This document shows positions 36,741 through 49,234 of a stretch of DNA of 64,000 nucleotides, in pieces; the stretch's first letter is position 1; the number at the start of each line of letters is the position of its first letter. This DNA is from Thermocatellispora tengchongensis. GTDB taxonomy: Bacteria; Actinomycetota; Actinomycetes; Streptosporangiales; Streptosporangiaceae. The translations under genes and the position numbers were made by a program. Location of the stretch: assembly GCF_014202315.1 (NCBI RefSeq), contig NZ_JACHGN010000036.1, forward strand, positions 1 to 64,000, read 5' to 3'. The notes beneath the pieces were generated by a model. That model did no database searches. It was given only the letters and a program-made list of their open reading frames with translations, and had not been told where the DNA came from.

Positions 36741-37238
36741 CCCGACCCGAGTGGGAACCCCAGGTGTGTCGCCCTCCCACCTCCTCCCGAACCCGGGCAC
36801 CCCTTCGGGGGACGGGAAGTGTCCGGGCACCGGGTGGATCTTCCGCAAGGCGCCACCTCCGAGTGTGTCACCGTTCGGGAGGAGGCGGCCGGAGGGTGTC
36901 GCGTTTCCGCAAGTTCCGGAATCCACCCTCATCCCGTCGGGCGCAAGATCCACCGTTGCCCGGACACTCCCCCACCTCTTCCCGGACGGGGACACACCCT
37001 CGGGACGGCGGACGGGGCCCGGCAGGGAGAGGCGACGCGCCGGTGAAGCGGTGCAGACGGCGTGCAGGCACAGCGTGGGTGCGATGAGCGGAGGGCCCCG
37101 CATGGCGAGGGCGGGCGATGACGGCGACGCGGGCGGGTGCGATCTCAACGTGTGTGAGTGGGAGACCGTGAGTGGCCAGGTGGGTGCGATGACTTCATTG
37201 CGACGACGGGTTGTGGCGGCTCGGGCGCGGGTCGTGCC
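36741..37238. repeat. non-coding region with long inverted and direct repeats
   Basis: No gene is seen. GTGTCCGGGCACCGGGTGGA (from about 36822) is matched in inverted orientation by TCCACCGTTGCCCGGACAC (about 36950-36968), giving arms of about 30 bp with a few mismatches and a spacer of about 110 bp. Direct copies of a CCCACCTC-TCCCG-ACGGG-type block lie at about 36776 and 36970, and GTGTGTC recurs twice. The patchwork suggests a decayed repeat family or folded RNA. Confidence 0.65.
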
Positions 37239-37331
37239 TGGACTGAGGAGCGCAGGGAGCGTAGCGACCGGAGTGACGAGGGAAGGCATGACCCTGTGGG
37301 GCGCCCGAGCCTGCCCGTGCGGAGCACGGGC
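37239..37331 (+). repeat. dispersed intergenic repeat, copy 2
   Basis: TGGACTGAGGAGCG-AGGGAGCGTAGCGACC and the following GACGAGGGAAG and GGGGCGCCCGAGCC blocks align with 21111-21203. The copy ends with the hairpin GCCCGTGC-GGA-GCACGGGC (37313-37331). The loop GGA is the same in both copies while the stem bases differ on both sides and still pair. It ends 18 bp before the NuoF-like start codon. Confidence 0.8.
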
Positions 37332-37349
37332 CATGAGCACGGAGCGCGC

Positions 37350-38810
37350 ATGATTCTGCACAAAGTGCCTGATGTTCGGCATGTGGGAGAGGCTCGGTTG
37401 ACCGCGGGGCTGGATCGGCATCGGCGGCTCGACTACGAGACGCATCGGGAGTTCCACCCTGAGCCGCCGCGTCACACGGTCGAGGAGATCGTGGCCATGG
37501 CGGAGGCCGTGGATCTGCGGGGGCGGGGTGGGGCGGCCTTTCCGTTCGCGCGGAAGTTCTCCGCGGTGGTGGCGGCGGCTCGGCGGAAGAACGCCGAGGT
37601 CGTCGTGGTGGTGAACGGTACGGAGGGGGAGCCGGCCAGTACGAAGGACAAGATGCTGCTGCTGCGCAAGCCGCACCTGATCATCGACGGGGCGCTGATC
37701 GCGGCCGACGCGCTGAACGCGGTGGAGGTCGTGATCGGGGTGGCCGAGGGGCACATGGCGCAGAACTCGATCATCGCGGCGGTGGAGGAGCGCAAGCTCG
37801 ACGGGTACGTGCGGGTGGTCGGGTTGCCCGAGCGGTTCGTGACCGGTGAGGGCGGCTCCGTCGTGAACGGGATCATGGGGCGGGAGGCCGTGCCGCGCGG
37901 GCGCGGCGGGCGTACCAGCGACAGCGGTGTGCGCAGCCTGCCGACCCTGTTGTCCAATGCCGAGACCTACTCCCAGCTCGCCATCCTGTCGCAGTACGGG
38001 CCGGACGGCTACGCCGAGGCCGGGGCGCCGGACGAGCCCGGGACCGTGCTGCTGACCATCGGCGGGTCGGCGATGCGGCCGGCCGTGGTGGAGACGCCGA
38101 CCGGCGTGCCGCTGGCCACCGTGCTGGACATCTGCGGCGCGGTGGTGGGGGACGGGGTGCTGGTCGGCGGCTACCACGGGCGGTGGCTGACCCCGGTGGA
38201 CGCGGCCTCGGTGCCGGTCTCGCGCAAGAGCCTGGCCGACGTCGGCGGCGTGCTCGGCGCCGGCATCATCGTGCCCCTGGGCGGGGAGACCTGCCCCCTG
38301 GGCGAGACGGTGCGGGTGACCTCCTATCTGGCGGCGCAGTCGGCGGGTCAGTGCGGCCCGTGCCGGCTCGGGCTGCCCGACGTGGCGTACCTGCTGAAGG
38401 ACCTGTCCGACGGGAACGGGTCGATCGAGGCGGTGCGGTGGGCCGCCGTCGGGACGCGCGGCCGGGGCGCGTGCTCGCACCCCGACGGGACCTCGCGCTT
38501 CGTGCTGTCCGCCCTGGACACCTTCAAGGACGACATCTCCCAGCATCTGATGAACGGCACCTGCGGCCGTCCGGTGTACGGCCTGCTGCCGATCCCCGCG
38601 GACGACGACTCCAAGCTGCGCCTGGTGGTGGACTGGACCCGCTGCCAGGGGCACGGCCTGTGCGCGAAGCTGTTCCCCGACCGGGTGAACCTGGACGCGC
38701 ACGGCTACCCGGTGATCTCCGACTCTCCCGTGTCCAACTCGCTCCTGCCACAGGCGCGTAAGGCGATCGAGATGTGCCCGGCCCTGGCGCTGCGCATAGA
38801 GGAGGGATAG
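37350..38810 (+). CDS. NuoF-like flavoprotein fused to a ferredoxin domain
   Basis: This 486-aa protein has an FMN/NADH-type fold (AVDLRGRGGAAFPFARKFSAV, VVNGTEGEPASTKDKMLL) as in NuoF. The SLBB-like part follows, then the 4Fe-4S site (SAGQCGPCRLG and a later RGRGACSHPDGT). The C-terminal about 65 residues are a small ferredoxin: DWTRCQGHGLCAKLFPDRV and AIEMCPALALRIEE, whose C-x5-C spacing suggests a 3Fe-4S or altered cluster. It lacks partners NuoE/NuoG. It probably passes electrons from NAD(P)H to a membrane acceptor such as the ferric-reductase-like protein upstream. The ATG at 37350 follows GGAGCG. Confidence 0.85.
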   Translation: MILHKVPDVRHVGEARLTAGLDRHRRLDYETHREFHPEPPRHTVEEIVAMAEAVDLRGRGGAAFPFARKFSAVVAAARRKNAEVVVVVNGTEGEPASTKDKMLLLRKPHLIIDGALIAADALNAVEVVIGVAEGHMAQNSIIAAVEERKLDGYVRVVGLPERFVTGEGGSVVNGIMGREAVPRGRGGRTSDSGVRSLPTLLSNAETYSQLAILSQYGPDGYAEAGAPDEPGTVLLTIGGSAMRPAVVETPTGVPLATVLDICGAVVGDGVLVGGYHGRWLTPVDAASVPVSRKSLADVGGVLGAGIIVPLGGETCPLGETVRVTSYLAAQSAGQCGPCRLGLPDVAYLLKDLSDGNGSIEAVRWAAVGTRGRGACSHPDGTSRFVLSALDTFKDDISQHLMNGTCGRPVYGLLPIPADDDSKLRLVVDWTRCQGHGLCAKLFPDRVNLDAHGYPVISDSPVSNSLLPQARKAIEMCPALALRIEEG

Positions 38811-39044
38811 CCCCCGCACAGTTCCCCCAGACCGCCCCCCGGCGCCTTCCTCACCCGCCCACGGAGCCGGGGGGCTCCCCCTTTTCCCGCTTGTGCTCGA
38901 TCGGCCGAACCAACGGGCCCGGCCTGGCGTCGAATCGGTTGCGCGCACGTGCGCGTACGGTGCCGGCATGTACAAAGATTGAGTAAATAGGCAGACTTGA
39001 CCGACCGGGGTCCAGGCCGCAGTCGAAGCAGTGGCGGGGGAGTG

Positions 39045-40262
39045 GTGAGCACGAGCGGGCCGCCGATGAGCGCGGAAGGCGTCGAGCATGCCCTCCGGCA
39101 GCGGCGGGCGGAGTTCGAGCGCCTGTCGGGCGACCTGCTGGACCTGGAGTCCCACTCCGGCTACCTGCTGCTCAAGGGCGCGGAGCTGACCGGCGAGACC
39201 AAGCGCCGCTGGGAGCGGGCCGAGGCCGGCATCGCCACGCTGTGGTGGCTGTTCGACGCGTTCCGGCGCACGCTGGAGAAGGCGGAGGAGGTCAGGGCGC
39301 GCCGCCCGCGGCCGGGCGCCGCCGAGCTGGCCGAGCTGACCGCGCTGCTCACCGGGCCCTCGGTGGAGATGAAGGTCGAGGACGTGCCGGTGGAGCGCCG
39401 CTCCCTGGTGCGCGCCGCCGCCGAGTGGCTGACCCTGGACCAGGTGCTGCGCCGCATGGACGACGCCTACCGCGAGAGCGCCCAGACCATCGCGGCGGTC
39501 GATTCCGCCTGGACGGTGCTGGCGCCGCGGGTCAACGCGGCCGAGGCGGTGTGGGACTCCGCGCGCAGGCTGGCCGAGGAGCTGGGCGAGCCCGACCCCG
39601 AGTTGGTGCGCCTCGGCGAGGCGCTGGTGGCGCTGCGCGACGCGGCCAGGTCCGACCCGCTCACCTACGCCACCGGCGACCCGCGCGAGCTGGCCGAGAT
39701 GGACCGGTTCGCGGCCGAGCTGGCCGACCGGCGGGGCCTGCTGGAGCAGGCGGTGCGGATCAAGGCGGGCTACGCGGAGCGGGTGGCGGCGCTGGCGGCG
39801 CGGCTCGACGAGGTCGAGCGGGCCGAACTGGCCGTGGTCGAGGCCCGCGACCTGGTGCTGATCAAGATCGCGAACCCGGTGCTGCCCGCCATGCCCGACC
39901 AGGCGCGTACGCTGCGCGACCGGCTCGACGCGCTCGACGGGCTGCGCGGCGCCGGCGACTGGACCGACCTCGCCCGCCGGATGACCGAGCTGGAACGCGC
40001 GGCCGACGAGGCGCTCGCCCAGGCGCGGGCCACGGCCGAGGCGGTGACCGGCCTGATCGCCCGGCGCGACGAGCTGCGCGGCCGGCTGGAGGCGTTCAAG
40101 GCCAAGGCGGTGCGCCTGGGCCGGGCGGAGGACGCCGAGCTCGGCTACCTGTACCGGCGAGCCCATGATCTGCTCTGGACGGCCCCGTGCGACCTGCGCC
40201 AGTCCACGGTCGCGGTGGCGGGCTACCAGCGGGCGATCTCACAGACTGGAGCGGGCGGATGA
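39045..40262 (+). CDS. coiled-coil protein of the pknG operon
   Basis: This 405-aa soluble protein is almost wholly helical with heptad-like runs (QRRAEFERLSGDLLDLESH, LAELTALL, AARLDEVERAELAVVEARDLV, RRMTELERAADEALAQARATAEAV). No catalytic motif is seen. It is the first gene of the seven-gene operon; its TGA overlaps the pknG ATG (ATGA), so it is made together with the kinase. The GTG at 39045 follows GGGGGAG. A scaffold role or a role as kinase substrate is plausible but inferred. Confidence 0.75.
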   Translation: MSTSGPPMSAEGVEHALRQRRAEFERLSGDLLDLESHSGYLLLKGAELTGETKRRWERAEAGIATLWWLFDAFRRTLEKAEEVRARRPRPGAAELAELTALLTGPSVEMKVEDVPVERRSLVRAAAEWLTLDQVLRRMDDAYRESAQTIAAVDSAWTVLAPRVNAAEAVWDSARRLAEELGEPDPELVRLGEALVALRDAARSDPLTYATGDPRELAEMDRFAAELADRRGLLEQAVRIKAGYAERVAALAARLDEVERAELAVVEARDLVLIKIANPVLPAMPDQARTLRDRLDALDGLRGAGDWTDLARRMTELERAADEALAQARATAEAVTGLIARRDELRGRLEAFKAKAVRLGRAEDAELGYLYRRAHDLLWTAPCDLRQSTVAVAGYQRAISQTGAGG

Positions 40263-42967
40263 GTCAGTGCACCCATCCCGGCTGCACGGGCACCGTGCAG
40301 GACGGCTACTGCGACACCTGCGGCCTGGCCCCGGCGGCGGCTCCGGCCGCGCCCGCGGCGGCGGCCCCGCCGGCGTACCCGCCCGCCGCCGGCTACCCGG
40401 GGCAGGGCGGCTACGGGTCCCAGCCGGCCGGATACCCGTCCCAGCCGGCCGGGTACGGCTCGCAGCCGGGCGCTCCGGCGTATCCCTCGCAGCCCGGCGC
40501 GTCCGCGCCCGCCTTCCCGGGCCGGCCGGCGCCGCCGCATCCGTCGGCGCCGCAGCCCGGTGCCCAATACCCGTCGGCGCCGCATCCGTCGGCGCCGCAC
40601 CCCTCGGCGCCGCACCCGTCCGCGCCGCAGCCGGGGGCGTCGCAGCCGTCCGCGTGGCGGGCGACCCCGTCGGCGCCGGTGTCCGGGTGGCGGGCGCAGC
40701 CGGTCGCGGCCGATCCCGGCACGGCGCCGAGCACCGGGCCGGTGAGCGGACGCACGTCGTCCAGCGGCCGTTCGCGCCGGTCGCTGCTGGGCGCGGGCCT
40801 GGTGTCGGTGCCGCCGGTGCCGTACCGCGACCCGGCCGAGGTGGTGCTGCGCAACCCCGAGGTGCCCGAGGACAAGCGCTTTTGCAGCAACGCCTCCTGC
40901 GGCAAGCCGGTGGGCCGGGCCAAGGGCGGGCGTCCCGGCCGTTCGGAGGGGTTCTGCCCGCACTGCGGCACCCGCTTCTCCTTCACCCCCAAACTGCAGC
41001 CGGGCGACCTGGTCGCCGGGCAGTACGAGGTCAAGGGCTGCCTGGCCCACGGCGGCCTGGGCTGGATCTACCTCGCCGCGGACCTCAACCTGGACGGCCG
41101 CTGGGTGGTGCTCAAGGGCCTGCTCGACACCGGCGACGCCGAGGCGCTGATGGCGGCCGAGGCCGAGCGCCGCTTCCTGACCGGCGTAGACCACGCCAAC
41201 ATCGTCAAGATCTTCAACTTCGTGCAGCACCCCGACCCCACCACCATGACGATGGTCGGCTACATCGTCATGGAGTACGTCGGCGGCCAGCCGCTGCAGG
41301 AGATGCTGCGGGCCAGGCTGCGCGCCAGCAACAACCGCGAGGCCCTGCCGATCGGTCAGGCCATCGCGTACGTGCTGGAGGTGCTGCGCGCCTTCGAGTA
41401 CCTGCACGACCGCAACCTGCTCTACTGCGACCTCAAGCCGGCGAACGTGATCCAGGTCGAGGACCAGCTCAAGCTGATCGACCTGGGCGCGGTGCGGCAC
41501 GCCGACGACCACGACAGCTCCATCTACGGCACCATCGGCTACCAGGCGCCCGAGATCGCCACCGAGGGCCCGTCGGTGGCCTCCGACCTGTACACGGTCG
41601 GGCGGATGCTGGCCGTGCTCAGCTTCCCGTTCAGCCCGGTCACCAACGGACAGCCGACGCCGCTGCCCTCGCCCAGCGCGGTGCCGCTGCTGGCGAGGTA
41701 CGAGTCGTTCCTGCGGTTCCTGCACCGGGCGACCGACCCCAACCCGGCGCGCAGGTTCCCCAGCGCGGCCGACATGGCCGAGCAGCTCACCGGCGTGCTG
41801 CGCGAGATCCGCGCGGCCGAGGACGGCATCCCGTACCCCGCGCCGTCGGGCCTGTTCGGGCCGGAGCGGGTCGCGGCCGGCACGGCGCTCGCGCCCAGCG
41901 CCACGCTTCCGGCGAGTTCCGTGCCCGCCGACCTCGCCGCCGCGCTCCCGGCACTCCCGGCGGGCGGCGCGAACGGAACAAACGGCACAAACGGCGTCAA
42001 TAGCGTCAACGGCGCGAACGGGGCCGCGGCGTCGCCGAACGGCTCGGGGCGGGAGGCGGTGCTGGTCCCGCTCGACCCGGTGGCGGCGGTCGGGGCGCTG
42101 CCCACGCCGCTGGTCGATCCGGCCGACCCGGCGGCGGGCTTCCTGGCCGGCATCACCGCGCGCACCCTGGACGACCTGGTCCGCATGATCGAGGACGCCC
42201 CGGTGTCCTCCGTGGAGACCCGGCTCGCGCTGATCCGGGCGCTGATCGAGCAGCGCAACCCGCGCGTCGGCGAGGAGCTGGAGCAGGCGGCCAGGGAGAC
42301 GCCGTGGGACTGGCGGGTGCTGTGGTACCACGGCCTGCGCGACCTGGCCTGGGGCAACATCGCCGACGCCGCGCGGATCTTCGACGAGCTGTACTTCCGG
42401 ATGCCGGGCGAGATCGCGCCCCGGCTGGCCCTGGCGTTCAGCAAGGAGTGCGCGGGCGACCCGCGCGAGGCGGGACGCCTGTACGCCACCATCTGGCGTA
42501 CCGACCGGTCCTACGTCAGCGCCGCGTTCGGCCTGGCCAGGGTGCGCCTGGCGGAGGAGGACCGGGTGGGGGCCACCCGGGTGCTGGACGAGGTGCCCAC
42601 GACCGCCAGCCACTACGTCGCCGCGCAGATGGCCGCGGTGGCCATCGCGGTGCGCGGGCGCGACCCGCGCTCGCTGACCCCGCCGGAGCTGGCCGGGGCC
42701 GGGCAGCGGCTCAACGACATCGGCCTCGACGCCGTACGCCGCAACCGGCTGGCCGCCGAGGTGCTGGAGGCGGCGCTGCGGTGGATGGAGGCCGGCGGCC
42801 GGCCGCCGGGACCGGCGACGCTGCTCGGCCAGCCGCTCACCGAGCGCGGCGTGCGCCGCGAGCTGGAGCGCGTCTACCGGGCCCTGGCCCGCGCGTCGCA
42901 GGTGCGGGCCGACCGGCACGCGTTCGTGGACAAGGCCAACGAGGTGCGACCGAGGACGTGGGCCTGA
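40259..42967 (+). CDS. pknG: serine/threonine protein kinase PknG
   Basis: This 902-aa kinase carries an N-terminal zinc ribbon (C4, C9, C18, C21), a long Pro/Ala/Tyr-rich disordered region with PSAPH repeats, and a rubredoxin-like Cys unit (CSNASC and CPHC, about 208-236). The kinase domain covers about 250-530, with glycine loop LAHGGLGWIYLA, catalytic YCDLKPANVI and IDLGAV replacing DFG. A TPR-type tail lies at about 640-900. This is the PknG layout. In mycobacteria and corynebacteria PknG phosphorylates the FHA protein GarA/OdhI to set flux through 2-oxoglutarate dehydrogenase and glutamate metabolism. Here it sits with its sensor proteins and a phosphatase. Confidence 0.93.
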   Translation: MSQCTHPGCTGTVQDGYCDTCGLAPAAAPAAPAAAAPPAYPPAAGYPGQGGYGSQPAGYPSQPAGYGSQPGAPAYPSQPGASAPAFPGRPAPPHPSAPQPGAQYPSAPHPSAPHPSAPHPSAPQPGASQPSAWRATPSAPVSGWRAQPVAADPGTAPSTGPVSGRTSSSGRSRRSLLGAGLVSVPPVPYRDPAEVVLRNPEVPEDKRFCSNASCGKPVGRAKGGRPGRSEGFCPHCGTRFSFTPKLQPGDLVAGQYEVKGCLAHGGLGWIYLAADLNLDGRWVVLKGLLDTGDAEALMAAEAERRFLTGVDHANIVKIFNFVQHPDPTTMTMVGYIVMEYVGGQPLQEMLRARLRASNNREALPIGQAIAYVLEVLRAFEYLHDRNLLYCDLKPANVIQVEDQLKLIDLGAVRHADDHDSSIYGTIGYQAPEIATEGPSVASDLYTVGRMLAVLSFPFSPVTNGQPTPLPSPSAVPLLARYESFLRFLHRATDPNPARRFPSAADMAEQLTGVLREIRAAEDGIPYPAPSGLFGPERVAAGTALAPSATLPASSVPADLAAALPALPAGGANGTNGTNGVNSVNGANGAAASPNGSGREAVLVPLDPVAAVGALPTPLVDPADPAAGFLAGITARTLDDLVRMIEDAPVSSVETRLALIRALIEQRNPRVGEELEQAARETPWDWRVLWYHGLRDLAWGNIADAARIFDELYFRMPGEIAPRLALAFSKECAGDPREAGRLYATIWRTDRSYVSAAFGLARVRLAEEDRVGATRVLDEVPTTASHYVAAQMAAVAIAVRGRDPRSLTPPELAGAGQRLNDIGLDAVRRNRLAAEVLEAALRWMEAGGRPPGPATLLGQPLTERGVRRELERVYRALARASQVRADRHAFVDKANEVRPRTWA

Positions 42968-42968
42968 G

Positions 42969-43868
42969 ATGACGGCGGAGATGACGGCCACCTGCCCCCA
43001 CTGCGCCTATCCGGTGCTCCAGGACGAGACCTTCTGCGAGGAGTGCGGGCGCGCGATCCACGCGGGCACCCCCGGCGCGTGTGCGAGCTGCGGCGCGGGG
43101 GCGTCCGAGGTCGGGGCCGACGGCTACTGCGGCCGGTGCGGGGTGCGCCAGCCCGCGCCGCGGGACCACCTGGAGGTCGAGACGGGCTCGGCCGCGGGCG
43201 TCAGCGACCGCGGGCTGCGGCACAGCCGCAACGAGGACTCCATGGCGTTGATGGAGGTGGACGAGTACGTCACGGTGGGCGTGGTGTGCGACGGGGTGTC
43301 GTCCTCGCCCCGGCCCGACAACGGGTCGCAGGCGGCGGCCGAGACCGGCGCGGCCACGCTGGTCAAGGAGCTGCGCGCGGGCGCGGGCCACGTCGAGGCC
43401 ACCCGGGCGGCCGTGGCGCGCGCCGCCGAGGCCATCGCGGCCCTGGGCACCTACGAGGACGCCCCCGCGTGCACGTACGTCTCGGCGATCGTGGCGCCCG
43501 GCCGGGTGACGATCGGCTGGGTCGGCGACAGCCGCGCGTACTGGCTGGGGCCCCGCCCGGTACGGCTGACCAGCGACGACGCCACCGAGACCGGCATGCT
43601 GACCGCCTGGCTCGGGGCCGACGCGGGCGAGGTGATCCCGCAGGTCAGCACCTTCGAGCCCGACACCCCGGGCGTCGTGCTGGTGTGCAGCGACGGCCTG
43701 TGGAACTACCTGCCGACCGCCGAGGAGATGGCCGCCGCGGCCCCCGGCGCCGCCACCGCGCCCCTGGCCACCGCCCAGGCGCTGGTACGGCACGCGCTGG
43801 AGTCGGGAGGACGCGACAACATCACCGTGCTGGTGATCCCATACGGGAGAGGGAGCGCTATCCAGTGA
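42969..43868 (+). CDS. PP2C-type serine/threonine phosphatase with double zinc ribbon
   Basis: This 299-aa protein has an N-terminal pair of zinc ribbons (CPHC, CEEC, CASC, CGRC, residues 9-58) and a PP2C domain. The metal-binding aspartates are in HSRNEDSM, VVCDGVSSS, GWVGDSRAYW, CSDGLWNY and RDNITVLVI. It should remove phosphate from substrates of the adjacent PknG. Its start is 1 bp after the pknG stop and its TGA overlaps the next GTG, so stoichiometric production is likely. Confidence 0.9.
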   Translation: MTAEMTATCPHCAYPVLQDETFCEECGRAIHAGTPGACASCGAGASEVGADGYCGRCGVRQPAPRDHLEVETGSAAGVSDRGLRHSRNEDSMALMEVDEYVTVGVVCDGVSSSPRPDNGSQAAAETGAATLVKELRAGAGHVEATRAAVARAAEAIAALGTYEDAPACTYVSAIVAPGRVTIGWVGDSRAYWLGPRPVRLTSDDATETGMLTAWLGADAGEVIPQVSTFEPDTPGVVLVCSDGLWNYLPTAEEMAAAAPGAATAPLATAQALVRHALESGGRDNITVLVIPYGRGSAIQ

Positions 43869-45151
43869 CCGAGCAGCCCCAGTTCACGATCAGCGTGGAC
43901 CAGAACAAGTACCTCGCCGTCGGCCACACCGAGGTGCACGCGATCCTCACGGTCGAGGCCAAGGGGCCCGCGGTGGCCGCGCCCACCACGCAGGCCGCCG
44001 AGGTGATCATCGTGGACACCTCGGGCTCGATGTCGTACGGCAAGATCGCCGAGGCGCGCAAGGCGGCCCAGGCCGCGGTGGACACGCTGCGCGACGGCGT
44101 GCACTTCGCGATCGTGGCGGGCACCGCCAACGCGCACATGGTCTACCCGCCCGACCGTCGGCTGCTGCCCTCCAACCCGCAGACCCGCCAGGCCGCCAAG
44201 GAGGCGATCGGCCGGCTCCAGGCCGACGGCGGCACCGCCATGGGCCGGTGGCTGCGCCTCGCGGCCGACCTGTTCGAGACCGTGCCCGGGGCGATCAAGC
44301 ACGCGATCCTGCTCACCGACGGCAAGAACGAGCACCAGAGCGCCGAGGAGTTCGACGCCGACCTGGCCTACTGCACCGGCAAGTTCGTCTGCGACTGCCG
44401 CGGCGTCGGCGACGCCTGGGTGGTGGCCGAACTGCGCAAGGTCGGCTCGACCCTGCTGGGCAGCGTGATGGACATCGCCGACCCCAAGGACCTGGAGGCC
44501 GACTTCCGGGCCATGACCCAGGCGGCCATGGGCAAGGCGGTGGCCGACGTGGCGCTGCGGATCTGGACCCCGCAGAACGCCACCATGACCTACATCAAGC
44601 AGGTCTCGCCCGCGCTGGAGGACCTGACCGCGCGCGGCACCCCGTCCGGGCCGCAGGCGCGCGACTACCCGACCGGCTCGTGGGGCAGCGAGACCCGCGA
44701 GTACCACATCTGCGTCCAGGTGCCGCCGGGGGTGGTCGGCCAGGAGATGCGCGCCGCCTGGGTGAAGCTGGTCGTGCCGGAGACCGGCGAGCAGCTCGCG
44801 GCGGGCAACGTGCTGGCGCAGTGGAGCGACGACTACGCCCAGTCCACCCGGATCAACCCCAAGGTCGCCCACTACACCGGGCAGGCCGAGCTGGCGGCGC
44901 TGATCCAGGACGGCCTCCAGGCCCGCAAGGAGGGCGATCTCGAGCTGGCCACCGCCCGCCTGGGGCGGGCCCGCGGCCTGGCGGAGCAGGCCGGCAACGG
45001 CGAGACCGCGAGGCTGCTGGACAAGGTGATCGACTTCGACCCCGAGACCGGCACCGCCCGGCTCAAGCCCAACGTGGAGAAGGCCGCCGAGATCGCGCTG
45101 GACACCCGCTCGGTGCGTACGGTGCGCATGCGCAAGGAATCAGAGGCGTAG
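43865..45151 (+). CDS. VWA domain protein
   Basis: This 428-aa protein has a von Willebrand A domain with an intact MIDAS motif (IIVDTSGSMSYGK, a later Thr in DGGTAMGRW, and AILLTDGKNEHQ). The C-terminal part (about 290-428) is a beta-rich then helical extension. No signal or helix suggests a membrane, so it probably binds protein partners in the cytoplasm. It begins at a GTG that overlaps the phosphatase stop. VWA proteins often pair with FHA/kinase systems as scaffolds. Confidence 0.87.
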   Translation: MTEQPQFTISVDQNKYLAVGHTEVHAILTVEAKGPAVAAPTTQAAEVIIVDTSGSMSYGKIAEARKAAQAAVDTLRDGVHFAIVAGTANAHMVYPPDRRLLPSNPQTRQAAKEAIGRLQADGGTAMGRWLRLAADLFETVPGAIKHAILLTDGKNEHQSAEEFDADLAYCTGKFVCDCRGVGDAWVVAELRKVGSTLLGSVMDIADPKDLEADFRAMTQAAMGKAVADVALRIWTPQNATMTYIKQVSPALEDLTARGTPSGPQARDYPTGSWGSETREYHICVQVPPGVVGQEMRAAWVKLVVPETGEQLAAGNVLAQWSDDYAQSTRINPKVAHYTGQAELAALIQDGLQARKEGDLELATARLGRARGLAEQAGNGETARLLDKVIDFDPETGTARLKPNVEKAAEIALDTRSVRTVRMRKESEA

Positions 45152-45200
45152 CCGGGCCGCACGACACCGGCACCAGGGAAAGGCGAGGAGGAACGCTGCG

Positions 45201-46091
45201 ATGGCCACCTGCCCCGATGGGCACGAGTCGGGCGCGACCGACTACTGCGACGTCTGCGGGACCATGATGTCCGGCTCGGCGGCGCCGGCCGCCGCGTCCG
45301 CCTCCGCCTCGGCGCCCTCCTCCGGCCCGGGAACCGGCGGTGAGGGGCGTACGAGCTGCCCCGACTGCCAGGCGCCGCGCACCGGCCGCTTCTGCGAGGA
45401 GTGCGGCTACGACTTCGCGATCGAGGTCTCCGGCGCGGTGCGCATGGCCGCGCAGCAGTCGGCGTCGGCCCAGGTGCAGCGGCCCGCCGCGTGGTCGCGG
45501 CCGATCCCGGGTACCAGCGGCGCCTCCTCGATGTCGGCGCGCCAGGTGCCGGGCGGCACGCTCCCGCCGACCGCGACGTACCCGTCGGCCGCCCAGTACC
45601 CCTCCTCGCCCCAGTACGCGCCGCAGCCGCCGTACCAGCAGCCGACCGGGCCGATGCCGACCGGGCCGGTGCCGTCGCCCGCGCCGGGCACGTGGGAGGC
45701 GATCGTGACCGCCGACCGCGCCTACTACGACTCCGTGATCGCGCAGGGCGGGCCCGACGCGGCCAGCGTCGCCTTCCCGCCGTACTGCCCGGAGCGCCGG
45801 TTCCCGGTGCAGGGCCAGCAGGTGCGCATCGGGCGGGCCAGCCGCTCCCGCGGCCTGACCCCGGAGATCGACCTCAGCGGGCCGCCTCAGGACCCGGGCG
45901 TGTCGCATCTGCACGCGGTGCTGCTCGCCCAGCCCGACGGGTCGTGGCTGCTCGTCGATCCGGGCTCGGCCAACGGCACGACCGTGAACGGCGCGTCCGA
46001 ACCGCTCGAACCGAACGTGCCGGTGCCGGTCGGCGACGGCGACCGGATCCAGCTCGGCGCGTGGACCGTCATCACGCTGCGGAAAGGGTGA
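45201..46091 (+). CDS. zinc-ribbon FHA domain protein
   Basis: This 296-aa protein has two N-terminal zinc ribbons (CPDG...CDVC and CPDC...CEEC), a Pro/Tyr/Gln-rich linker and a C-terminal FHA domain (QQVRIGRASRSRGLTPEIDL, GVSHLHAVL, LVDPGSANGTTVNG, DRIQLGAWTVI). The FHA domain binds phosphothreonine. Its place beside PknG makes it a candidate counterpart of GarA/OdhI, but it has no obvious GarA-type TT phosphosite near its N-terminus. It could instead dock phosphorylated PknG or other partners. Confidence 0.88.
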   Translation: MATCPDGHESGATDYCDVCGTMMSGSAAPAAASASASAPSSGPGTGGEGRTSCPDCQAPRTGRFCEECGYDFAIEVSGAVRMAAQQSASAQVQRPAAWSRPIPGTSGASSMSARQVPGGTLPPTATYPSAAQYPSSPQYAPQPPYQQPTGPMPTGPVPSPAPGTWEAIVTADRAYYDSVIAQGGPDAASVAFPPYCPERRFPVQGQQVRIGRASRSRGLTPEIDLSGPPQDPGVSHLHAVLLAQPDGSWLLVDPGSANGTTVNGASEPLEPNVPVPVGDGDRIQLGAWTVITLRKG

Positions 46092-46097
46092 CCCGCC

Positions 46098-47582
46098 GTG
46101 ACCACCCCCATGACCATCTCCCAGCAGGCGCCGGCCCCGCCCGCCGCTCCCGCGGGGCAGCCGCCGGGCCCGCCCCCGGCGCCCACGCCGCCCGCGCCGG
46201 CCACCGGGCGCGGACGCCGCCGCACGGTGCCCGCCCGGATCTGGACCCTCACCGGCGCGAGCCTGGTGGCCGCGGCGCTGCTGTTCGGCGCGACCGCACT
46301 GTCGATCGGCAACGCCAGGGAGGGCCTTCAGGTCATCGGCCATGACGCCGGCCCGCAGGTGGTGGCCACCGCCGACCTGTACTTCGCGCTGAGCGACATG
46401 GACGCCCAGGTCGCCAACGTGCTGCTGATCGGCAGGGAGACCAGCCTCGGCAAGGGCAGGCAGCAGGCCCTGGACCGCTACGACCAGCGCCGGGCCGAGG
46501 CCAGCCGGGCGGTGCTCCAGGCGGCCGAGCTGGCGCTCGGCGACCCGACCGAGCAGCAGACCGTACGCCAGGTGCTCGACGGCCTGGGCCGGTACGAGCG
46601 GCTGGCCGCGCAGGCGATCCTGCTCGACCAGCAGTCGCAGCACGCCGCCGGGCCGCCGCCCGACCGGGTGATCGAGCTGTACCGGCAGGCGACCGACCTG
46701 ATGCGGCTGGACCTGCTGCCCAAGGCGTACAACCTGACCCTGGACAGTGGCACGATCGTGCGCGAAACGTACGAGGACGAGAGCGCGGCCGTGCTCACCG
46801 GCCGGTTCCTGGTCGGCGCGGCCGGGCTGCTCACGCTGGCGCTGCTGATCGGGCTGCAGATCTTCCTCGCGCGCAGGTTCCGCCGGGTGCTGAACCCGGC
46901 GCTGCTGCTGGCCACGTTGATCATCGCGGTGTTCACGCTGTCGGGGATGCTGCTGCTCGGCCGCGAGGCCGAGAACCTGCGGATGGCCAAGGACGACGGG
47001 TTCAACTCGGTGCTGGCGCTGTCGCGGGCCCGCGCGATCGGCAACACCATGCACGGCGACCAGAGCCGCTACCTGCTCGACCCGCAGCGCGCCGACACCT
47101 ACGAGCAGGTCTACCTCGACAAGTCGCAGTCGGTGCTCTACACGCCCGGCGGCAGCCTGGACAAGTACTACGCCGGGGTGGACAAGGTCGTCGGCGAGTG
47201 GCCGGAGAAGGTGGACTTCCTCGGCTTCCACGGCGCGGAGGCCAGGAACCTCACGCTGCGCGACCAGCGGCCGGCGGTGGGCGCGGTGCTCACGGCGTAC
47301 GAGAAGTTCCAGCAGCAGGACCGGCAGATGCGCAGGCTGGCCGTGGCCGGGCAGGCCCGGCAGGCCATCGCGCTGCGGATGGGGACCCTGGCGCAGAGCT
47401 TCGAGAGCTACGACAAGGCGCTGGTGGACCTGATCGCGTTGCACCGCGGCGCGTTCGACGGCGCCATCAGGTCCGGCGATGACGACCTCGGCGGCTGGAA
47501 CGTCATCGTGCCCGGCGCGGCGGTGCTGGCCGCGCTGCTCATCTTCGCCGGCATCGTCCCGCGGCTGTCCGAGTATCGGTAG
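46098..47582 (+). CDS. GlnX-like membrane sensor
   Basis: This 494-aa protein has a Pro/Ala-rich cytoplasmic N-terminus and four helices (about 47-67, 235-255, 265-287 and 473-490). Two extracytoplasmic helical regions of about 165 and 185 residues lie between helices 1-2 and 3-4. This matches the layout of GlnX, the mycobacterial protein that links periplasmic glutamate/aspartate binding by GlnH to PknG. Gene order (next to glnH-like and downstream of pknG) supports the call. The N-terminal cytoplasmic region is a likely contact for PknG or the FHA protein. Confidence 0.8.
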   Translation: MTTPMTISQQAPAPPAAPAGQPPGPPPAPTPPAPATGRGRRRTVPARIWTLTGASLVAAALLFGATALSIGNAREGLQVIGHDAGPQVVATADLYFALSDMDAQVANVLLIGRETSLGKGRQQALDRYDQRRAEASRAVLQAAELALGDPTEQQTVRQVLDGLGRYERLAAQAILLDQQSQHAAGPPPDRVIELYRQATDLMRLDLLPKAYNLTLDSGTIVRETYEDESAAVLTGRFLVGAAGLLTLALLIGLQIFLARRFRRVLNPALLLATLIIAVFTLSGMLLLGREAENLRMAKDDGFNSVLALSRARAIGNTMHGDQSRYLLDPQRADTYEQVYLDKSQSVLYTPGGSLDKYYAGVDKVVGEWPEKVDFLGFHGAEARNLTLRDQRPAVGAVLTAYEKFQQQDRQMRRLAVAGQARQAIALRMGTLAQSFESYDKALVDLIALHRGAFDGAIRSGDDDLGGWNVIVPGAAVLAALLIFAGIVPRLSEYR

Positions 47583-47590
47583 GGGTGCCA

Positions 47591-48415
47591 ATGAGAACAA
47601 GGCGCGTGAGGGCCGCCGTGGCGGGGGCGGCGCTGATCCTGGCCGCGGCGGGCTGCGGGCTCGGCGGCGGCGACCAGCAGTCGATCCTGGACAAGGAGGT
47701 CCTGGTCGTCGGGGTCAAACCGGACCAGCCGGGCCTCGGCCTGAGGAAGGGCGGCGAGTACGAGGGCTTCGACGTGGACGTCGCCAAGTACGTCACCCGC
47801 AAGCTCGGCTTCGAGAACGTCACCTTCATCCCGGCCCCGTCGGCGCAGCGGGAGAAGATGCTCCAGGAGGGCCAGGTCGATCTGATCTTCGCCACGTACT
47901 CGATCACCCCGGAGCGCAAGACCAAGGTGGACTTCTCCGGCCCGTACTACGTGGCCCACCAGGACACCCTGGTCCGGGCGTCCGACGCGGCGGTCATCGA
48001 CAACGTGCGCGACCTCAAGGGCCGCAACCTGTGCCAGGTGACCGGCTCCAACTCCTGGCGCCGGGTGAAGGAGGAGCGCAAGGTCGCGGTCAACCTGGTC
48101 GAGGCGCCGTCGTACAGCGACTGCATCGCCAAGCTGAAGTCGGGCGAGGTGGACGCGGTCTCCACCGACGACCTCATCCTGGCCGGGTTCGCGGGCGCGG
48201 AGACCCGCTCGGTGAAGATCATCAACGCGCCGTTCACGGACGAGCGCTACGGGGTGGGCATCAAGAAGGGCGACATCGACGGCTGCGAGGCGGTCAACAA
48301 GGCCATCACCGAGATGTACCAGGACGGCACCGCCGAGAAGCTGCTGCACAAGTGGTTCGGCCCCACCGGGCTGAACCTGACCACCACCGTGCCCCAGTTC
48401 GAGGGCTGCGGCTAG
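47591..48415 (+). CDS. glnH: GlnH-like amino-acid-binding lipoprotein
   Basis: This 274-aa lipoprotein has a signal peptide ending LILAAAGC (Cys22). The mature part is a type 3 solute-binding fold: LVVGVKPDQPGLG, GEYEGFDVDVAKYVTRKLG, LIFATYSITPERKTKVDFSGPYY, SYSDCIAKLKSGEVDAVSTDD. The family includes glutamate/aspartate/glutamine binders. No ABC permease or ATPase follows, so it serves sensing rather than uptake, in line with GlnH of the PknG pathway. ATG start 8 bp after the GlnX-like gene. Confidence 0.9.
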   Translation: MRTRRVRAAVAGAALILAAAGCGLGGGDQQSILDKEVLVVGVKPDQPGLGLRKGGEYEGFDVDVAKYVTRKLGFENVTFIPAPSAQREKMLQEGQVDLIFATYSITPERKTKVDFSGPYYVAHQDTLVRASDAAVIDNVRDLKGRNLCQVTGSNSWRRVKEERKVAVNLVEAPSYSDCIAKLKSGEVDAVSTDDLILAGFAGAETRSVKIINAPFTDERYGVGIKKGDIDGCEAVNKAITEMYQDGTAEKLLHKWFGPTGLNLTTTVPQFEGCG

Positions 48416-48472: not shown

Positions 48473-49234
48473 TCAGCCGGTGGGCTGGTCGCGGCGGTGC
48501 GCGACGTCCATCAGGCGGTAGCCCTCGCGCACCGAGCGCAGGTGGTCGCGCATGCGGTCGGCGGCGCCCTCGGTGTCGCGGGCTTCGACCGCCGCCGCGA
48601 TGGCGCGGTGCTCCTGCACCACGGCCTCCCAGAAGTCGGGGGCCATGCGGGACCGCTGGAAGCCCCGCTCCAGGACGCCCGACAGGGGGGCGCAGAGCAG
48701 GGGCAGCAGCCGGTTGCCCGACGCCTCGAACAGGACGTTGTGGAACTCGCGGTCGATCTGGTGGAGGGCGTCGGGGTCCATCTCGCCCGGCCGTTCGGGC
48801 AGCAGCTTGCGCAGCCGGTCGAGCTGATCCTCGTCGCGGTTGGCCGCGGCCAGCGAGGCGACCGGGATCTCCAGGATCTCGCGGGTCGCGATGACGTCCT
48901 CGGGGGTCAGCTCGTCGGACCACACCAGCAGGGACAGGTTCGAGTCGAGCAGGTGGGAGATCCGGTCGGGGACCGGGCGCGCCACCGAGGTGCCGCCGCC
49001 GGCGCCCGCTCTGGTGACGACGAGGTTGTCGGCGGCCAGCAGCCGCAGCGCCTCACGGATCGTGCTGCGGCTGGTGCCGAACTGCTCGGCCAGCTCGGCC
49101 TCGACGGGAAGCTGCTCGCCGGCGGTGAGCGCGCCAGTGAGGATCCACTGCCGCATCTGGTCGGCGACCTGCTCGTACGCGCGACGCACTGGCCGCGGCT
49201 GGACGGCGGGCCGGCCCGGATGGCGTGGGGACAT
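48473..49234 (-). CDS. FadR-subfamily GntR regulator
   Basis: This 253-aa protein has a winged helix-turn-helix (AYEQVADQMRQWILTGALTAGEQLPVEAELAEQFGTSRSTIREALRLLAADNLV) and an all-helical FCD ligand domain (about 105-235) with the acid-binding DREFHNVLF and histidines in EHRAI and RDHLR. FCD domains commonly sense organic acids or acyl-CoA through a metal. It is divergent from a BASS transporter gene. A copy of the AGTCTGA-type operator lies 40 bp upstream of its own start. Confidence 0.9.
   Translation of the reverse strand: MSPRHPGRPAVQPRPVRRAYEQVADQMRQWILTGALTAGEQLPVEAELAEQFGTSRSTIREALRLLAADNLVVTRAGAGGGTSVARPVPDRISHLLDSNLSLLVWSDELTPEDVIATREILEIPVASLAAANRDEDQLDRLRKLLPERPGEMDPDALHQIDREFHNVLFEASGNRLLPLLCAPLSGVLERGFQRSRMAPDFWEAVVQEHRAIAAAVEARDTEGAADRMRDHLRSVREGYRLMDVAHRRDQPTG

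Follow-up and report, generated by a model that had tools for sequence, protein, structure and literature searches.

A conserved seven-gene PknG locus of Thermocatellispora tengchongensis carries the parts of a possible ArnAB-like switch

Results

The PknG locus of T. tengchongensis

We analysed a 64,000-nucleotide stretch (the window; contig NZ_JACHGN010000036.1, positions 1 to 64,000) of the 11.65-Mb genome of the soil actinobacterium Thermocatellispora tengchongensis. Seven plus-strand genes at positions 39045–48415 encode, in this order, a helical protein (C), the protein kinase PknG (K), a PP2C-type phosphatase (P), a von Willebrand factor A (VWA) protein (V), a forkhead-associated (FHA) protein (F), the membrane transducer GlnX (X) and the solute-binding protein GlnH (H). 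We describe the conserved order of these genes and the likeness of V and F to the ArnB–ArnA pair of Sulfolobus acidocaldarius. The position, strand and domain content of every gene bear out the seven-gene unit proposed in an initial annotation of this DNA; the domains scoring above cut-off were the PknG rubredoxin, kinase and tetratricopeptide repeat (TPR) domains, PP2C_2, VWA_3, VWA_3_C, FHA and SBP_bac_3. The overlapping start and stop codons described there are present at the C–K (ATGA) and P–V (GTGA) junctions only, the remaining genes being separated by gaps of 1 (K–P), 6 (F–X), 2–8 (X–H) and 49 nucleotides (V–F). Scanning the operon for promoters and terminators gave no match, which is uninformative at such GC content.

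PknG, the phosphatase and the helical protein

The kinase gene (40259–42967) encodes 902 residues that match 2pzi at E 7e-163 and comprise an N-terminal zinc ribbon (CTHPGCTGTVQDGYCDTCG, 40268–40324), a Pro/Ser-rich linker, a rubredoxin domain (PF16919, 98.3 bits), a kinase domain (PF00069, 96.4 bits) and, at the C terminus, the PknG TPR domain (PF16918, 295 bits), with all three Pfam matches above cut-off. The catalytic residues K286, D391, K393, N396 and D408 are present in all 215 relatives. The rubredoxin metal site, placed by alignment at 40883–40969, reads C-x4-C ... C-x2-C, so that in the window C-x4-C stands instead of C-x2-C in its first half. In several genera one metal-binding Cys of this domain is replaced (CPHDG, CPYDG and CSVDG; alignment rows L039, L104 and L110), and the metal site may therefore be lost in those genera.

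The zinc ribbon was found on 183 of the 186 PknGs that adjoin any of C, P, V or F and on 5 of the 30 that adjoin none; two of the three ribbon-less exceptions among the 186 are cut at the contig start. Two or three tandem N-terminal ribbons occur on the PknGs of L070, L083, L085, L086 and other Actinomadura loci, and two occur in some Streptomyces. The idea that the ribbon on K is a ligand of the VWA protein was rejected, because eight Nocardiopsis loci without V retain the ribbon when their N termini are read with a laxer pattern; it had seemed to be lost there because our first pattern was too strict. L248, which is also devoid of V, is the sole one to lack the K ribbon in the frame read.

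The phosphatase (42969–43868) combines a PP2C domain (PF13672, 49.7 bits) with N-terminal zinc ribbons, the double zinc ribbon PF12773 scoring 25.5 bits, just below its cut-off of 27.3. Residues D108, D187, D242 and D283 are each kept in 161 of 163 relatives. As judged by a rough pattern, ribbons are carried by 153 of 164 P and 160 of 165 F proteins. The first gene of the locus (39045–40262, or from a possible in-frame TTG start at 38997) encodes the 405-residue all-helical protein C, which matched no Pfam or NCBIfam family and nothing in PADLOC at E 1e-5. Its AlphaFold2 model has a mean predicted local distance difference test (pLDDT) score of 92.1, and a Foldseek search with this model returned no match at E 0.001. 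The best VIA match, EzrA (Z 10.4, root-mean-square deviation (rmsd) 11.4), lies within the range quoted for helical models that lack a clear match, and we assign no fold to C.

Likeness of V and F to the ArnB–ArnA pair

The VWA protein (43865–45151) matches PF13768 and, over its C-terminal bundle, PF18571, which we take to be the same entry as ArnB_C (IPR040929). Its model (pLDDT 90.0) has the three-part architecture of ArnB, with a VWA domain, a beta-sandwich and a C-terminal helix bundle. It superimposes on a VWA protein of the same family from Catenulispora acidiphila (PDB 4FX5, Caci_2163) with Z 52.9 over 411 residues and 51% identity, on ArnB (8s05_A) with Z 30.3 and rmsd 3.6 over 362 aligned residues, and on ArnE (5a8j) with Z 26.4 over 345; chains that have the VWA domain alone in common with V align over about 170–190 residues. 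The metal ion-dependent adhesion site (MIDAS) is intact in 161 of 167 relatives and missing from six frames. At the C terminus of V, a Ser/Thr tail (T414-x-S416-x-x-T419, 45104–45121) offers candidate phosphosites, with T419 conserved in 97%, S416 in 95% and T414 in 91% of 168 V proteins, and the most conserved ten-residue stretch of V is 334–343, at the start of the bundle.

The adjoining gene (45201–46091) encodes F, in which two zinc ribbons, read in the sequence, are joined through a Pro-rich linker to an FHA domain (PF00498, 48.2 bits). The phosphothreonine-binding residues R212, S235 and N258 are present in all 164 relatives. A zinc finger and an FHA domain with these residues, encoded next to a VWA gene, is the make-up of ArnA.

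The Sulfolobus pair, encoded by Saci_1210/1211 (PMC12852372), works through the same types of domain. ArnA consists of a zinc finger, which binds the beta-sandwich and C-terminal bundle of ArnB, and an FHA domain; ArnC phosphorylates the bundle; and the two proteins associate loosely through the zinc finger and, after phosphorylation, tightly through the FHA domain, in a nutrient-dependent manner (PMC12852372, PMC6509490). The ArnB bundle has been assigned to ArnB_C (PMC12852372), and the fold likeness between 4fx5 and ArnB has already been published (PMC6509490, PMC12852372). Judged by this analogy, the operon contains every type of part that an ArnAB-like switch would require, namely a kinase and a phosphatase together with a VWA protein that has a conserved Ser/Thr tail and an FHA protein that bears zinc ribbons.

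Several loci carry altered forms of V. In L084 and L100 the inserted VWA domain is gone while the start, sandwich and bundle are kept, and L108 and L111 are alike and more eroded. In L084 a single reading frame runs from the shortened V through the second ribbon of F to the FHA domain, and the Ser/Thr tail of V is gone. V is a remnant in L049 and in L043, where the end of the bundle and the tail are retained. In two loci without F, L146 and L153 (the genome of the latter has no F match at E 1e-8), a ribbon is found at the C terminus of V.

GarA is encoded elsewhere and is distinct from F

The initial annotation had described the locus as a self-contained phospho-relay running from ligand to reader. 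The label is a misnomer, as Ser/Thr phosphorylation and dephosphorylation are expected, and the chain is not self-contained: the search for a separate garA/odhI gene that was suggested there found one at C8:124224–124613, outside the operon. This GarA/OdhI relative has the FHA core and a DTTS stretch and scores 186.8 bits against NF041660 (cut-off 200), the next-best FHA match in the genome scoring 67.9. At E 1e-35, 148 of the 150 Streptosporangiales genomes match the same family, with or without PknG, although only 3 of the 150 pass the curated cut-off; since it occurs in genomes devoid of PknG as well, GarA is independent of this module. The GarA/OdhI relative of T. tengchongensis (L033 1357–1908, C8 near 124224) begins with a zinc ribbon of its own (CTQCGHANPEDARFCSRCG); we know of no N-terminal zinc ribbon in mycobacterial GarA. 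We rejected F itself as a GarA/OdhI or its replacement, because F scores only 17.7 bits against NF041660 and GarA is separate.

GlnX and GlnH

The GlnX-family gene (46098–47582), the only copy found in the genome, scores 312 bits against NF058618 (cut-off 250) and 44.6 bits against the GlnX equivalog NF041460 (kinase G-activating), below the required 780. In a second PknG locus of Nocardiopsis (L149, L150 and L152) an F-type zinc ribbon is fused to the N terminus of GlnX and no F gene was matched. Apparent F–GlnX fusions in L068 and L105 proved to be artefacts, so that ribbon–GlnX frames stand in these three loci only.

The last gene (47591–48415, with a possible GTG start at 47585) encodes a GlnH-type solute-binding lipoprotein (SBP_bac_3, 114.8 bits; lipobox AAGC). 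In an alignment it keeps the equivalents of Arg147, Thr162, Ser164, Arg169 and Asp250 of Mycobacterium tuberculosis GlnH, of which that of Arg147 is present in 192 of 193 relatives. Arg147, Thr162 and Trp232 of the M. tuberculosis protein contact the Asp/Glu side chain (PMC6069109). The residue matching Trp232 is Tyr in the window, as it is in all 98 module loci of family f1. It is Gln in all nine f5 loci and in 49 of 51 named loci with the gene order of Streptomyces, and Phe in f44; of the 24 loci that have none of C, P, V and F, 23 have Trp. Judging from these residues, the ligand of GlnH is likely acidic.

Gene order is conserved within and beyond Streptosporangiales

The gene-order survey, in the window's family, covered 115 loci from 96 PknG-bearing genomes of the order plus the window, giving 116 mapped loci, of which 106, including the window, were uncut (with at least 1.5 kb of sequence before the kinase match and at least 7 kb after it). 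Genes were called with phmmer from seed sequences, overlapping matches being removed; calls from iterated hidden Markov models (HMMs) were discarded because they matched shadow frames of the GC-rich DNA. When losses are allowed, every one of the 106 uncut loci follows the order C-K-P-V-F-X-H on the strand of the kinase, and in each GlnX adjoins the kinase; in 104 every match is on one strand, and the other two have an extra match on the opposite strand. The gene order is thus conserved far beyond chance, with the qualification that single genes have been lost in some lineages.

All seven genes were matched in 65 of the 106 loci, or 62 once three are set aside in which V (L043, L049) or P (L055) is a remnant. 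Matches over only about half the length of C (L139, L141) or P (L094) were scored as presence of the gene; this length check extended to genes other than F and K. By plain count, C is absent from 20 loci, P from 18, V and F from 10 each, H from 8 and X from none, and the complete order is found in 63 of 97 genomes (61 without the remnant cases) and 14 of 21 genera. Loci without P lie in genomes whose other fetched locus has P in 15 of 19 cases (the 18 and L055), and loci without F in genomes whose other fetched locus has F in 7 of 10; for V this was so in only 1 of 10. At the level of genomes, 98 of the 150 of the order score above cut-off for PknG (PknG_TPR) and 95 for GlnX, and 84 match the VWA protein at E 1e-20; as read from the match tables, every genome with GlnX or the VWA protein also carries PknG. 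The genes are therefore largely present or absent together, in line with the suggestion that they are inherited as a module.

Beyond Streptosporangiales the module extends to Streptomyces, Phytohabitans and Actinopolymorpha. Among 80 named loci, 44 have the order X-H-C-K-P-V-F, all from Streptomycetaceae genera by title except L222 ('Actinobacteria bacterium OV320'); a Phytohabitans locus has this order as well (F counted twice), as do all nine f5 loci (C or K was called twice in two of them). Six of the 80 are C-K-P-V-F-X-H, 16, all from Pseudonocardiaceae genera, are X-H-K, seven are cut or partial (four X-H-C-K-P-V, two X-H-C-K and one K) and six have other losses. The ten loci of family f6, probably Mycobacteriaceae, comprise seven X-H-K, one X-K and two with K alone, and in the single f44 locus C-K-P-V-F is accompanied by H and X in reverse. 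Two blocks of fixed order, C-K-P-V-F and X-H, thus exchange places between families.

The lone PknG module in its class, L173 of genome G318 (1 of 24 genomes), has H and X on the opposite strand. L208, from a metagenome-assembled genome titled Amycolatopsis sp. RYN_118, is C-K-P-V-F-X in a genus that is otherwise X-H-K, and reflects either misbinning or a retained ancestral form. The families f81, f10, f77, f87, f97 and f101 of the class have lower-scoring PknG_TPR matches (high in f101), often two per genome in f81; the gene-order survey is confined to the other families, and orders may differ in these six. The genes that flank the operon in the window, a NuoF/ferredoxin-like gene upstream (37158–38810, plus strand) and a GntR/FCD regulator downstream (48473–49234, minus strand), show no sign of belonging to it.

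The X-H-K operon is likely a reduced module

Five PknGs carry a ribbon in loci without C, P, V and F, namely the f1 loci L112, L148 and L151 (the last of these cut at a contig end) and those of Kibdelosporangium (L175) and Actinophytocola (L214). The ribbon on the last two, X-H-K PknGs of Pseudonocardiaceae, looks like a vestige. A quick tree of PknG sequences, with f44 as the root, places the X-H-K rows within the module rows; the window's nearest named relative there is Spongiactinospora rosea (Streptosporangiaceae). The root is a single genome on a long branch, G318, the only PknG carrier among 24 genomes of its class, for which transfer or misbinning is possible. Because the two Pseudonocardiaceae PknGs retain the ribbon, the X-H-K operon of this family and, presumably, of Mycobacteriaceae appears to be a reduced form of the module; with the root resting on one genome and support of only 82–83 for the forks that nest X-H-K, we grade this as likely and no higher.

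Discussion

Our results place the locus between two known systems. Like the PknG-GlnX-GlnH/GarA (OdhI) pathway of Mycobacterium and Corynebacterium, it has GlnX, GlnH, a separate GarA and a PknG in which a rubredoxin domain, missing in corynebacteria, accompanies the kinase and TPR domains. Unlike that pathway, in which K stands alone, it has five linked cytoplasmic genes, C-K-P-V-F, with a zinc ribbon on PknG and a linked PP2C phosphatase, and nearly all modules have Tyr or Gln at the GlnH position that matches Trp232. With ArnA–ArnB (and ArnC/ArnD and PP2A) of S. acidocaldarius it shares the architecture and MIDAS of V, the ribbon and FHA domain of F, a kinase, a phosphatase and, presumably, nutrient input. 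It differs in having a PP2C instead of PP2A, a linked solute-binding protein and membrane transducer, two ribbons on F and candidate phosphosites in a short tail of V, and in the lack of a match at the level of sequence. PknG is not mentioned in the ArnB papers (PMC6509490, PMC12852372). We found no description of the seven-gene unit in the open-licence literature, which was covered in part, nor, in the same literature, a role in the PknG pathway for V, C or F, in keeping with the initial annotation. Kinase/PP2C/VWA triads have been published before; the new point is an ArnAB-like pair inside a PknG operon.

We tentatively favour, while regarding it as far from assured, a reading in which the locus is a complete PknG nutrient-sensing system with an ArnAB-like V/F switch downstream of PknG, reset by P and operating beside GarA. 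By homology with the pathway established in mycobacteria and corynebacteria, GlnH would bind an acidic amino acid outside the cell, GlnX would pass the signal over the membrane, and PknG, turned on via its TPR domain, would phosphorylate the distantly encoded GarA. The further steps are new and proposed by analogy with ArnAB. The zinc ribbon of F would sit loosely on the beta-sandwich/helix-bundle face of unphosphorylated V; PknG would phosphorylate the conserved Ser/Thr tail of V; and the FHA domain of F would then bind this tail to give a tight V–F complex, which would free the ribbons and alter what is bound to it. Resetting the switch would fall to the local PP2C, and C may be a helical scaffold produced together with PknG. 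In favour of this reading stand the collinearity of the 106 loci, the intact catalytic and binding residues of K, P, V and F, the match of V to the ArnB fold, its conserved Ser/Thr tail, the persistence of sandwich and bundle where the VWA domain has gone, the fusions of V with F or a ribbon and of GlnX with an F-type ribbon, and the presence of P or F at another locus in most genomes that have a locus lacking it.

Besides the modest support in the tree, several observations weigh against this reading. The fold of V is not exclusive to the Arn proteins, as ITIH1 matches with Z 25 over 332 residues, and neither V and ArnB nor F and ArnA could be matched by sequence (no such match in the PDB at E 0.01 and 0.1); phmmer with V at E 0.01 returned 4fx5 and ITIH4 only. 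The VWA-sandwich-bundle architecture is widespread (PMC12852372), and such proteins were described in 2026 as 'mostly not being involved' in multi-phosphorylation dependent processes (PMC12852372). The link between tail and reader is not strict: of 154 loci with F, 145 have Ser/Thr at all three tail positions, and so do 7 of the 13 lacking F; of these 7, three are cut at contig ends and four (L068, L091, L105 and L204) lie in genomes with F elsewhere, and in six F-bearing loci T414 is A, V or I while S416 and T419 are kept. Since V is absent from 10 of the 106 loci (and a remnant in two more) and F from 10, neither is obligatory. F and a ribbon-bearing K persist in the eight Nocardiopsis loci that lack V, which means that V cannot be the only protein the ribbons serve. 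Finally, L146 and L153, with a ribbon at the C terminus of V, are sisters in the K tree and so represent one event.

It is also possible, although we think it rather doubtful, that F, V, P and C merely tune PknG and GarA, with F competing with GarA for the phosphothreonines of the PknG linker, P dephosphorylating both GarA and PknG, V and C anchoring the complex at the membrane, and no V/F output. The near-universal occurrence of GarA and the intact phosphothreonine site of F fit such tuning, as do the ribbons shared by K, P, F and the GarA of this genome, and the N terminus of M. tuberculosis PknG docks GarA via the FHA domain of the latter (PMC8546545). Against it, GarA persists in genomes without PknG, and the conserved tail of V and the V–F fusion would be left unexplained.

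The company of a VWA protein, a PP2C and a kinase has a further parallel in TerY-P, which couples a VWA protein, a PP2C and a zinc-ribbon kinase (PMC11090510), and in the actinobacterial GAP1-N2 systems, where a kinase, often with a zinc ribbon, is found with PP2C and VWA genes (PMC7159879). The locus might accordingly be read as a stress or defence triad of this type joined to GlnX–GlnH, with a conflict or stress output in place of a metabolic one. We consider this very improbable. The TerY-P kinase has its ribbon or an OB fold at the C terminus, and K has neither there, being a PknG with rubredoxin and TPR domains, an N-terminal ribbon and a C-terminal TPR domain; of the seven proteins the kinase alone has a PADLOC match, via its kinase domain, the other six giving none at E 1e-5; GlnX is the constant neighbour of the kinase; and the available parts of PMC7159879 and PMC11090510 mention no amino-acid sensor for these genes. 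Independent losses of single genes in some lineages, most often of C and P, would suit a reading in which C, P, V and F serve other pathways and only share an amino-acid-linked promoter with pknG. Given the strict collinearity, the gene fusions and the near-restriction of the K ribbon to loci with these genes, such mere co-transcription is improbable.

We place little reliance on a broader proposal: PknG may have arisen as the kinase of a seven-protein, membrane-linked switch with a core of the ArnA/ArnB type, in which PknG would mark the tail of V, F would read it, and the ribbons of K, P and F (and of GlnX in the Nocardiopsis paralogue) would dock on a V/C platform. The mycobacterial and corynebacterial PknG-GlnX-GlnH would then be what was left after loss of the rest.

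In the literature covered, work on PknG has centred on the three-gene form, which leaves questions about how GlnX activates the kinase, whether a phosphatase matches it and which further substrates it has. Candidates are supplied by the complete module of Streptomyces and related genera, in its PP2C, its FHA protein as a reader and its VWA protein, whose conserved tail may make it a substrate. If our reading is correct, an archaeal-type, nutrient-dependent ArnAB switch would be placed in antibiotic-producing actinobacteria, and the PknG system of the tuberculosis family may be a cut-down form of a seven-gene block.

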